DNA of 27,122 nucleotides, taken from positions 1-27,122 of IMG/VR virus record IMGVR_UViG_3300043410_000516; one strand, 5' to 3'. Each line of letters begins with the position of its first letter. The first letter of the stretch is position 1. Positions 902-5,659 of this stretch are shown here, piece after piece. The notes under the pieces were generated by a model. It saw only the letters and a list, made by a program, of their open reading frames with translations. It was not told the DNA's origin and searched no databases. The stretch is from a virus. The translations under genes and the position numbers were made by a program.

Positions 902-1120
902 GATAAATTCCTTTTATATATTTTGGTAATAACACTAGCTTGTGTTTAAGATAGTCACAAATAATCGGCAATTAAGCATGATTACGCTATCCCCGAATGA
1001 TTTAGCTTTCAATTTAGCTTTAGCTTGCTAAATACATCTCTTAATGTAAGACGCTATTGCAATGGGTATTGTTATCCCTTGCTAGTTAGGGTTGCTTATT
1101 CTTTATTACACGCTATTACC
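902..1120 (-). repeat. Noncoding late leader with short direct repeats and a palindrome
   Basis: No reading frame is supported here on either strand. The stretch lies between the 1121-1147 terminator and the first late gene. It contains TTTAGCTT three times in 26 bases (1001-1008, 1013-1020, 1019-1026), ACGCTAT three times (984-990, 1051-1057, 1110-1116), and a near-palindrome AACACTAGCTTGTGTT at 931-946. The 9-mer TAATCGGCA at 962-970 equals half of the operator-like palindrome at 5640-5653. Its place next to the terminase genes makes a packaging recognition site possible, but no cos or pac motif can be read directly. Confidence 0.4.
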
Positions 1121-1147
1121 AAAAAAAAGACCGCCATATAGACGGTC
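1121..1147 (-). terminator. Intrinsic terminator in front of the late genes (tR'-like)
   Basis: On the minus strand, GACCGTC and GGCGGTC form a 7-bp stem with one G-U pair and a TATAT loop. Eight T residues follow at once (1128-1121). It lies 45-70 bases downstream of the promoter at 1199-1227 and upstream of every late gene, so late transcription needs read-through. The 9-mer CCGTCTATA in its left arm is repeated 36 bases upstream (1173-1181), giving an alternative partner for the GGCGG arm. Confidence 0.85.
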
Positions 1148-1198
1148 GAAACGGAGATGTTAGAACAAAACCTATAGACGGAATTGTCCTACACGCGC

Positions 1199-1227
1199 AT
1201 TATTGCACACTTTTGACTTTTTGTCAA
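1199..1227 (-). promoter_or_regulatory. Strong sigma-70 promoter, leftward (late promoter, pR'-like)
   Basis: On the minus strand, TTGACA (1227-1222) is separated by exactly 17 bases from AATAAT (1204-1199). The predicted start is near 1192. The -35 box is one arm of the inverted repeat TTGAC-AAAAA-GTCAA, and AAAAGTG/AAAAGTC words recur across the -35 and spacer region, where a Q-type protein binds in lambda-like phages. A second TTGACA lies at 1250-1245. The position after the last early-left gene and before the terminator fits a late promoter. Confidence 0.8.
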
Positions 1228-3342: not shown

Positions 3343-3496
3343 TCTCCAGTCTAACTGCTGTCATGTAAAGTTTGCCATCTTCTATTAACCAAACAATATG
3401 ATGTTCTAATCCACAATCACAGCATTTAAGTAAATACTTTTCACCAATAGGAACTTCAAAAGTTTCAAAATCTTTTCTATAAACTATTTCACTCAT
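3320..3496 (-). CDS. Hypothetical zinc-ribbon-like protein, 58 aa
   Basis: The ATG at 3496 overlaps the helicase stop as ATGA and the stop is at 3320. The middle carries YLLKCCDCGLEHHIVW, a CCxC...HH cluster that could bind one zinc ion together with further residues. The rest is short beta-type sequence and an acidic C-terminus (LENENELSI). Small CxxC/HH proteins of this kind often sit between replication and recombination genes in phages; function unknown. Confidence 0.65.
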   Translation of the reverse strand: MSEIVYRKDFETFEVPIGEKYLLKCCDCGLEHHIVWLIEDGKLYMTAVRLENENELSI

Positions 3497-4350
3497 TGCT
3501 TGCTCCTATAGAAGTCCTGCTCATATACATAGCTTGCTTGATTGTAATCATACATCAATTCAGCTACGCCTGGATGCCCTGTCGAGTTAAATCTAACCTT
3601 TTGAATATGTACCTGCGTTAACTGTGGATTATTCATTACGTTACGCCAAATAGCTATGCAGTTATCAGCTTTGTTAAACCAATGTGCAGAGCCTGATATA
3701 TCGTAAGGTCTAGGCACAGGATAATTACCATCTGGTCCTTTAGATAGCTTCATAGGATGCGCCACCAAAAATAAATGTGTCTTAAATTCTCTAGCAGCTC
3801 TACGCAATTCTGTAAGCACACGAGAGATATATTCAGTTTCGCTTAATCCTGCTGGCCTATAATGGTCCATCTCATTCCAAGGGTCAATCACCAGCGCACG
3901 AGGTTGCACAGTAGATTGCTCTAGCCATGGTAAAGCCTCATTGATAATGTGCATAGGCGTAAACTCTGTTTCTTTTGGCTTAATGAAAGCAAAGTGTTGA
4001 TTCATTTTTTCAATGCCTTCAAACATCTCATTTTGTGACATTTTACGTTGACCAAAGAAAGGTTTATGTACAAACTTCTCAATAATCTTTTTAGCGTGCA
4101 TCTCTAGAGGATGGTTTTCAGGAGAAAACATACATATACGATAATTATGTTTAATAGCGAGATTGACACAAAGAGCATCAAGCCATTCAGATTTGCCGTG
4201 GCTAGGCATGCCTGTAATGACAGTAAACTCGCCATGCTTAATACTAAAAAAGCTATCCAAATTACTCCATCCAGTAGTATGTCCACGAGCTACCCCACTT
4301 TCGTATAGTTGATTGATTTCTAGTAATAGTGATTTAGGATTGACTATCAT
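3493..4350 (-). CDS. DnaB/Twinkle-type replicative helicase (RecA-like domain)
   Basis: This 285-aa protein contains the C-terminal helicase core only. Walker A is GMPSHGKS (residues 47-54), Walker B ALVIDPWNE (152-160), and a sensor-type strand HLFLVAHP lies at 192-199. GSAHWFNKADN (220-230) is the signature loop of phage and mitochondrial Twinkle-like helicases, and VRFNSTGHPG (252-261) carries the arginine-finger region. There is no primase domain and no full DnaB N-terminal domain, so priming is probably left to host DnaG. It follows the initiator-like gene with ATGA overlap, giving an initiator-helicase pair like lambda O-P or O-DnaB modules. Confidence 0.88.
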   Translation of the reverse strand: MIVNPKSLLLEINQLYESGVARGHTTGWSNLDSFFSIKHGEFTVITGMPSHGKSEWLDALCVNLAIKHNYRICMFSPENHPLEMHAKKIIEKFVHKPFFGQRKMSQNEMFEGIEKMNQHFAFIKPKETEFTPMHIINEALPWLEQSTVQPRALVIDPWNEMDHYRPAGLSETEYISRVLTELRRAAREFKTHLFLVAHPMKLSKGPDGNYPVPRPYDISGSAHWFNKADNCIAIWRNVMNNPQLTQVHIQKVRFNSTGHPGVAELMYDYNQASYVYEQDFYRSKQ

Positions 4351-4955
4351 ATAGCTGGTGCTTTCGGATTGTTATTAGGAATATTAGCCCAGTTGTCACG
4401 AATAGCGTTCATAAAAGCAGAATCCCAATCAATATATTTATAGCCTTTAGACTGTGCTTTTAATACAAAGCTGTCAAGATGTTTTTCAAGATTGTAATAT
4501 TTATTCTTTTCAGCCCATTTAATTACTCGTTCGCTTACTGTGAAATTATCAGGAATTCTCGTTTCCTTTACTTCCACTCCCTTCCTTTCCTTCCTTCCTT
4601 CCGTGATGAGTACTCCATGAGTCCTCAATGATTCATCATATATTGGGCAAGTAGGTTTTGATGGTCTGTTGATAAGTTGATGTTTATTAAAGCCTTGTAT
4701 ATGTAAATATAATCTATCCTCATAGCTATATTCAATTAGTAATTCTTTTGCAAGCAATTCTAAAATCAATGGCTCGCAATCTAAATTGTCTAAAGGAAAT
4801 ACTCTAGCTTTAATTTGTTTAGCTGAACGGTCTAGATTGCCATTATCATCAGCAAAGTTCCATGTGCCAATGAATAGTAAACGAGCACTCAATGAGCACT
4901 CTGTGAGCTTTTCATCAGTCCAAAAGTCTGGTTTTATTGTTCTTATTCTAGCCAT
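4347..4955 (-). CDS. Phage replication initiator / helicase-loader-like protein (O/DnaT-like)
   Basis: This is a 202-aa protein read from ATG 4955 (AGGATAAAG ribosome site); a longer start at 4970 is less likely. The N-terminal domain MARIRTIKPDFWTDEKLTEC with SLSARLLFIGTWNFADDNGN is the winged-helix start common to phage replication proteins. A basic linker around residues 118-131 joins it to a C-terminal domain (IPDNFTVSERVIKWAEKN, then YKYIDWDSAFMNAIRDNWA) that resembles DnaT/replication-protein C-terminal domains binding ssDNA and helicase. The linker DNA (4561-4603) is an unbroken-looking purine tract on this strand built from GGAA repeats, in the part of the gene where lambda-type O genes carry their origin. 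Confidence 0.8.
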   Translation of the reverse strand: MARIRTIKPDFWTDEKLTECSLSARLLFIGTWNFADDNGNLDRSAKQIKARVFPLDNLDCEPLILELLAKELLIEYSYEDRLYLHIQGFNKHQLINRPSKPTCPIYDESLRTHGVLITEGRKERKGVEVKETRIPDNFTVSERVIKWAEKNKYYNLEKHLDSFVLKAQSKGYKYIDWDSAFMNAIRDNWANIPNNNPKAPAI

Positions 4956-5412
4956 TTTCTTTATCCTCATACATTTTTATGTATCCACGGAAATCAATAT
5001 GAATATCTCTTACTTTTAATCCTAAATCATAAAAAGCCCTAAAACAAGCACAATCCTCACAATCTGTTTCAGCAAATAATGAGTCGTAATCAAAATTACA
5101 ATATCCAGCTATCATAAATGCTATTGATGTTCTATCATTTGGACCATCATAATCCAAATATGAACTTATTTTTTTTAACATATCTTTATAAGCATGATGA
5201 TTTTTGTGACAATCTTCACATAAAACTATTAGTTGATTAAGATTATATTCCCAAGGCTCATGTCCTTTAAAATATTCTTTATGGTGAACATTTAATGATG
5301 TTGAATCATCAAAACACATTTGACAGCAAAAGTTAGCTTTTTCCATAGCTTGTAATCTAACTTTTTGCCAACGGGGGTCTTTTAGCTTTTCATAATAAGT
5401 CTTTTCAGCCAT
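4948..5412 (-). CDS. HNH endonuclease, first gene of the early-left operon
   Basis: This 154-aa protein has a clear HNH fold in its first half: WQKVRLQAMEKANFCCQMC provides the first zinc knuckle, SLNVHHKEYFKGH the catalytic His pair (residues 43-44), and NLNQLIVLCEDCHKNHH the Asn and second knuckle (C65, C68, H69, H72-H73). The C-terminal half is Cys- and Asp-rich (FAETDCEDCACF) and unrecognised; it may be the DNA-specificity part. The start ATG 5412 has GGAG directly after the U-run of the structured leader. Role may be homing, nicking or packaging-related cleavage; the gene looks like an insertion at the head of the operon. Confidence 0.85.
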   Translation of the reverse strand: MAEKTYYEKLKDPRWQKVRLQAMEKANFCCQMCFDDSTSLNVHHKEYFKGHEPWEYNLNQLIVLCEDCHKNHHAYKDMLKKISSYLDYDGPNDRTSIAFMIAGYCNFDYDSLFAETDCEDCACFRAFYDLGLKVRDIHIDFRGYIKMYEDKENG

Positions 5413-5422
5413 TTTTTACTCC

Positions 5423-5533
5423 AAAAAAAAGGCCTCACCTGGACTCTCACTCTTTTTTAAGGAGCGTTGGTGGAGCAGGTCAGTACCTGCCAGAGTCCAT
5501 GTGAAGCCTTACTGAATGATAAATCACCACCAA
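5423..5533 (-). promoter_or_regulatory. Structured leader RNA with terminator-like U-run (possible attenuator or put-like element)
   Basis: On the minus-strand RNA, 5510-5492 pairs with 5447-5429. AAGGC-U-UCAC then TGGACTCT pairs with AGAGTCCA then GTGA-G-GCCTT: 18 pairs including one U-G, with one A-G mismatch. Inside are two hairpins, GCAGGT/ACCTGC with a four-base loop (5490-5475) and CGCTC/GAGTG (about 5466-5448). The upstream sequence TTGGTGG (5533-5527) is perfectly complementary to CCACCAA (5473-5467) in the junction, so a pseudoknot or a competing fold is possible. Eight U follow the long stem and then the RBS of the HNH gene. The U-G pair exists only in the leftward transcript, which supports that strand. 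Function is inferred. Confidence 0.6.
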
Positions 5534-5544
5534 GTGACAAGTGC

Positions 5545-5631: not shown

Positions 5632-5659
5632 TTGACACTTGCCGTAATCGGCATATAAT
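5632..5659 (+). promoter_or_regulatory. Early-right promoter (PR-like) with operator palindrome in its spacer
   Basis: The consensus boxes TTGACA (5632-5637) and TATAAT (5654-5659) are separated by 16 bases. The spacer holds the perfect palindrome TGCCG-TAAT-CGGCA (5640-5653), which a repressor or Cro-like protein could bind to block polymerase. The predicted start near 5666 gives a leader of about 25 bases before the first gene. This placement also rules out starting that gene upstream of the promoter. Confidence 0.88.

Follow-up and report, generated by a model that had tools for sequence, protein, structure and literature searches.

A doubly pseudoknotted leader RNA with a terminator-like tail at operon starts in uncultured phages

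The window analysed here, a stretch of 27,122 bases, is the virus record IMG/VR IMGVR_UViG_3300043410_000516 (positions 1 to 27,122). On its minus strand, a promoter is followed by a leader RNA of about 115 bases, an HNH gene, a replication initiation gene and a DnaB-type helicase gene. The leader is predicted to form a nested double pseudoknot from six helices, which we call P0, PK1, PK2, P2, P3 and P4. The features, in window coordinates, are as follows.

5573-5545, minus strand: promoter, with -35 TTGACT (5573-5568), a 17-nt spacer and an extended -10 TGTGC-TATCAT (hexamer 5550-5545)
5523-5538, minus strand: P0 hairpin, stem 5538-5534 with 5527-5523 and a 6-nt loop UUGGUG (5533-5528)
5527-5533, minus strand: 5′ strand of PK1, UUGGUGG, which is the P0 loop plus one stem base
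5467-5473, minus strand: 3′ strand of PK1, CCACCAA, in the junction between P3 and P4
5510-5515, minus strand: 5′ strand of PK2, UCAGUA, just before P2 and overlapping its base
5480-5485, minus strand: 3′ strand of PK2, UACUGA, in the loop of P3
5492-5510, minus strand: 5′ arm of P2, 19 nt
5429-5447, minus strand: 3′ arm of P2, 19 nt, with the mismatch A5500 x G5439
5474-5491, minus strand: P3 hairpin, 5491-5486 with 5479-5474, closed by a G-U wobble
5448-5466, minus strand: P4 hairpin, 5466-5462 with 5452-5448, with an A-rich loop and no linker to P2
5430-5423, minus strand: run of eight U in the window sequence, a terminator-like tail directly 3′ of P2
5412-5422, minus strand: Shine-Dalgarno GGAG (5422-5419) and spacer to the first ATG (5412)
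4948-5412, minus strand: first gene, HNH endonuclease
4347-4955, minus strand: gene for a replication initiation protein (phrog_1408)
3493-4350, minus strand: DnaB-type helicase gene

No close relatives of the window's HNH protein were found. A divergent rightward promoter (TTGACA-16-TATAAT, window 5632-5659, plus strand) carries the palindrome TGCCGTAATCGGCA in its spacer, likely an operator, and no structured leader lies downstream of it.

A sequence-only reading of the window had proposed a helix of about 18 bp that encloses two hairpins and is followed by eight U and the ribosome-binding site of the first gene, together with a perfect match between TTGGTGG (5533-5527) and CCACCAA (5473-5467). 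All of these elements are present: P2 has 18 pairs and one mismatch, the enclosed hairpins are P3 and P4, and the complementarity is exact. Its list lacked the P0 hairpin around TTGGTG, PK2 (TCAGTA 5515-5510 with TACTGA 5485-5480), the conserved character of the single P2 mismatch and the apparent transcript start at P0. Folding of 5540-5400 gives -52.6 kcal/mol (z -4.15), and none of 200 dinucleotide shuffles was as good; the outer 9 bp of P2 alone, closed with a GAAA cap, average -12.9 kcal/mol. A stable stem with a U-rich tract directly after it, as in intrinsic terminators, is found here. A simple calculation gives a chance expectation of about 0.15 exact 7-mers between segments of such lengths. 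Hence, the 7-nt match is weak evidence when taken alone, and the comparative data decide.

The first homologous leaders were found through helicase relatives in IMG/VR. A degenerate pattern scan of IMG/VR contigs returned at least 119 stretches, and a structural descriptor with a filter gave 126 members, 100 of them distinct (at least 100 versions), referred to here as class A. These leaders sit at operon starts in uncultured phages. One copy (L298) lies in the chromosome of Polynucleobacter sp. UK-Kesae-W10, with genes for a CI-like repressor and a DnaC-like protein next to it in a prophage-like context, and two further copies (L310 and L311) come from other genomes of the same family, the Burkholderiaceae. 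With the covariance model, sense strands score 60-113 bits and the reverse strands of the same sites no more than 40 bits, in agreement with the earlier assignment of the structure to the leftward transcript. Consensus leaders searched against 50,697 phage records matched only two uncultured Manatee Spring genomes, and against plasmids they gave no match; the window's own leader produced only spurious Blast matches among the same phage records. In Rfam 15 no family reached the gathering threshold for the leader, which gave chance-level matches when the stretch was searched alone, and the literature searched contained no description of it.

Covariation statistics were computed on 45 diverse sequences, with shuffles and slid partners as controls. 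In the real alignment 95.1% of pair cells are paired, compared with 75.2% in shuffles, and 367 cells carry double changes, as opposed to 86 in the shuffles and no more than 69 with slid partners. The covariation score reaches 0.571, against 0.180 for shuffled and at most 0.091 for slid sequences. Compensatory changes keep all six helices, including PK2 and the 7-base PK1. The outcome that would speak against the fold, relatives keeping the sequence without the pairing, was examined, and the opposite was found.

The individual helices behave consistently. P0 is paired in 97.3% of cells, with double changes in four of its five pairs, and in relatives its stem has 5 bp and its 6-nt loop reads UUGRNG in most. 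PK1, which is kept across relatives, is paired in 99.3% of cells and shows the pair types GC/AU/CG, CG/AU/UA and GC/AU. Nine PK1 loop sequences occur; 97 of the 100 members pair fully with their own partner, whereas a loop set against the partner of another loop type hardly ever gives complete pairing (0.1%). PK2 is more variable, with 24 different sequences among the 100 members and a strand of 5-7 nt, and at least five of six positions are Watson-Crick paired with the member's own P3 loop in 92/100. Double changes are seen at 16 of the 19 positions of P2. A P2 mismatch at positions 9-11 is present in 98/100 members (A-C in 60, U-U in 22, A-G in 6), with essentially none elsewhere; a hinge, avoidance of RNase III and avoidance of a perfect DNA palindrome are each possible explanations. 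P3 has about 5-6 bp, is paired in 97.7% of cells and is closed by a G-U pair in 44 of the 45 sequences, and P4 has 4-7 bp in relatives. No mutually exclusive or antiterminator helix covaries, and other candidate helices show at most three double changes. One fold accounts for the data, because every additional candidate helix lacks covariation.

The position of the leader is as regular as its fold. In 84/100 members, 5-8 nt separate the end of the best -10 match from P0, so that transcription is expected to begin at P0 or beside it. After P2, at least six of eight nucleotides are T in 94/100, and most of the 18 leaders that come from loci of 50% GC or higher retain the U-run; L144 has only four T in these 8 nt. 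A start codon lies within about 25 nt after P2 in 99/100, mostly at 16-19 nt, and where the first match is an in-frame TTG, an ATG is found at about 17-18 nt. The first genes, whose types were assigned by visual inspection of the sequences, are a varied set: most encode replication initiators of several types, and the rest encode DUF1376/DUF4373-like proteins, HNH and GIY-YIG nucleases, ParB-like proteins and others. The two Burkholderiaceae copies (L310 1600-1501, minus strand; L311 1501-1600, plus strand) have the class A fold without a U-run or obvious promoter, directly before an HNH gene, and the fold was possibly carried off by this homing endonuclease gene. A direct functional link between the RNA and the HNH gene, as in HEARO/IscB, was rejected because most first genes are replication initiators.

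Leaders of other kinds were seen in the same phages and their relatives. In sister phages the class A slot is occupied by a class B leader (L009:3273, L025:3042, L029:1975, L033:2671, L305, L306 and L308), in which the loop of one hairpin is complementary to the apical loop of a second one that resembles a terminator and is followed by U8. The class B variants compensate each other (GGACAAG/CTTGTCC, GGACTAG/CTAGTCC, GGTCAAG/CTTGACC). Several class A contigs also contain, on the same strand and 3-4 kb further downstream, a class C leader that has a promoter of its own. Here the loop of a hairpin pairs with a strand in the interior of the terminator domain, forming a predicted kissing pseudoknot with the compensating variants TGTCGGGCA, TGTGGGCA, TGCGGGCA, TATCCGGC and TGTCAGGC. 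The class C leaders, with positions along the printed strand, and the late-side leader of the window are the following.

L276:4001, plus strand: class C leader
L237:6348, minus strand: class C leader
L238:7167, minus strand: class C leader
L246:3567, minus strand: class C leader
L159:8982, minus strand: class C leader
Window 1120-1227, minus strand: late-side promoter (1227-1199) and short structured leader with a hairpin (1147-1129) and U8 (1128-1121), z -5.86

In relatives the late-side leader (class D) is a hairpin with a conserved UCUCCG loop, and a terminator hairpin immediately precedes the first late-side gene. Before the late-side promoter, in the position of lambda Q, lies a gene conserved in relatives (2063-1734, minus strand) that encodes a 109-aa protein. 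Searches of Pfam, PHROGs, NCBIfam and PDB sequences gave nothing significant for this protein, and its AlphaFold model weakly resembles sigma region 4. Classes B, C and D had no Rfam 15 match at the gathering threshold in the sampled loci; the only match was a tRNA in L298.

Sequence comparison establishes the fold, its place at the transcript start, the U-run and a nearly constant spacing to the first gene. We interpret the leader as the complete 5′ UTR of the replication operon, built as a pseudoknot scaffold within a promoter-proximal intrinsic terminator that gates expression, and we give this explanation an even chance of being correct. P0 would fold first during transcription, PK2 and P3 would come next, and the P0 loop would then capture the P3/P4 junction as PK1 before the 3′ arm of P2 is made. 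Since such a scaffold would hold the 5′ arm of P2 ready, the 19-position helix would close at once while the U-run occupies the active site, and the polymerase would stop or pause. The outer 9 bp would act as the terminator stem inside the exit channel, with the conserved mismatch as a hinge to the folded domain, and most transcripts would end as an RNA of about 115 nt. Read-through would depend on a factor that recognises the folded RNA, for which P0/PK1 is the obvious target, or on a modified polymerase.

This terminator model is favoured by the covariation of every helix, by the near-perfect P2 and the stability of its outer 9 bp, by the U-run also in GC-rich phages, by the regular placement of the -10 box before P0 and of a start codon shortly after P2 ahead of diverse genes, by the lack of a competing helix, by the leaders of the same logic in classes B and C, and by the late-side promoter that leads into a hairpin and U8. 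Against it stand L310 and L311, which have no U-run, and L144 with its four T; the U-rich stretch before the Shine-Dalgarno sequence could also serve translation instead. Because L310 and L311 keep the fold without the U-run, termination is perhaps not the sole function; the two copies caution that the fold may be of use where no termination occurs, or may have been carried off by a homing endonuclease gene. Furthermore, a terminator does not need two pseudoknots, and the fold must therefore do more, which the model leaves to some further factor. The sequence-only reading had proposed that the leader decides between termination and read-through. Its structural half is strongly borne out, in that the replication operon opens with a conserved pseudoknotted cis-leader ending in a terminator-like U-run, and the deciding role is plausible.

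An unlikely alternative is that the leader RNA is itself a processive antiterminator that stays on RNA polymerase past later terminators, the U-run being a pause for folding. Such RNAs, putL and putR, are known from phage HK022, and the earlier reading had invoked the put RNAs. Like them, the present leader is a structured phage RNA near an early promoter, one per operon, with a proposed role in cis control of termination, and the single promoter-proximal leader per operon, the transcript of the Manatee Spring phage record that would continue through NinB towards terminase, and the lack of an alternative antiterminator helix fit this idea. However, put RNAs consist of two simple stem-loops without a pseudoknot or a terminator tail, whereas the present RNA is a pseudoknotted three-way junction, and no sequence or Rfam relation between the two was found; the resemblance is functional at most. 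A strong terminator fused to an antiterminator would also be odd, and the protein in the Q position, with its weak sigma-4-like fold, could do the job instead.

Also unlikely is a stabiliser and translation leader, in which the knot would protect the mRNA 5′ end like a cap and the U-run would be a site for ribosomal protein S1. The expected start of the transcript at P0, the nearly fixed distance from P2 to the start codon and the two copies with the fold but no U-run before an HNH gene would all suit such a role. Nevertheless, the U-run abuts the base of the helix, this base has the canonical A-rich/U-rich form of a terminator, the U-run is retained in GC-rich phages, and translation enhancement does not require 18 perfect pairs. 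Another candidate, pairing of the Shine-Dalgarno region with the 3′ strand of PK1 (UUGG with CCAA), was set aside: TTGG occurs within 25 nt downstream in 73/100 members, but several lack it, and a T-run followed by GGA yields TTGG for free. The c4 antisense RNA of P1/P7/P22-type phages, also a structured phage leader directly upstream of operon genes, pairs with a downstream Shine-Dalgarno region, and no c4 match was found in the window with Rfam.

The compact RNA bounded by a promoter, a 5′ hairpin and a terminator-like 3′ end, with PK2 sequences that vary widely between phages, would also suit a trans-acting small RNA or decoy whose downstream genes are expressed by read-through. We regard this as improbable, given that a free-standing RNA has no need of a first gene within about 25 nt in 99/100 members and that the loops are satisfied inside the molecule.

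Sensing of a ligand, which the sequence-only reading had offered as an option, is very improbable. The compact three-way junction, the pseudoknots and the conserved core residues resemble those of a riboswitch, but no mutually exclusive helix covaries that could serve as an expression platform, and the downstream genes share no product, pathway or metabolic theme. Likewise, the covariation screen found no classical antiterminator helix, and any switch must therefore act through a protein, RNA polymerase or the ribosome. With no competing helix, a classical attenuator or riboswitch is less likely, and a factor that alters the polymerase or recognises the folded RNA is more likely. Leader-peptide attenuation was rejected, as an ATG open reading frame of at least five codons is found in only 21/100 leaders.

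A self-cleaving ribozyme of the HDV fold is scarcely credible: the nested strand order is identical (P1 5′, P2, P3, P3′, P1′, P4, P4′, P2′) apart from P0 and PK2, with a 5′ segment pseudoknotted to the P3/P4 junction, but P4 joins P2 without a linker in the aligned members, which leaves no J4/2 strand, the bearer of the catalytic C in HDV ribozymes; the P3 loop is taken up by pairing with the strand before P2 (the second pseudoknot joins other strands than in HDV), and Rfam gives no HDV match. As put, HDV and riboswitch RNAs each fail a tested defining feature, we file the leader as a new family within the known kind of structured phage leader RNAs, and not as a member of any of these three.

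Returning to the terminator model, the closest known layout is the Q-gated pR′-tR′ leader of lambda (6S RNA), in which promoter, short leader and terminator likewise precede an operon. The second promoter of the window (1227-1120) has the same position, after the Q-placed gene; a difference from lambda is that a leader of this kind precedes the early operon as well. The target of Q in lambda is DNA at the promoter, and to our knowledge no conserved pseudoknot is known in the lambda late leader.

Few phage RNA elements are known to control termination (nut, put and Q-gated leaders). The family described here, with 100 distinct members, two covarying pseudoknots and a terminator-like tail, has hardly any counterpart among cultured phages or in Rfam. 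As a compact and testable case, it lends itself to studying how RNA polymerase is steered by tertiary folding of RNA, and its covariance model marks operon starts in metagenomic phages. The same pairing of a loop with a terminator in classes A, B and C suggests, tentatively and with somewhat less than an even chance, that a large group of uncultured phages gates each operon by a promoter-proximal terminator knotted to an upstream hairpin, that at least three leader types have converged on this design, and that these phages follow an RNA-centred transcription programme with their own antitermination factor or with direct action on RNA polymerase. If the leader does act directly on the polymerase, RNA-only antitermination would be widened beyond HK022.
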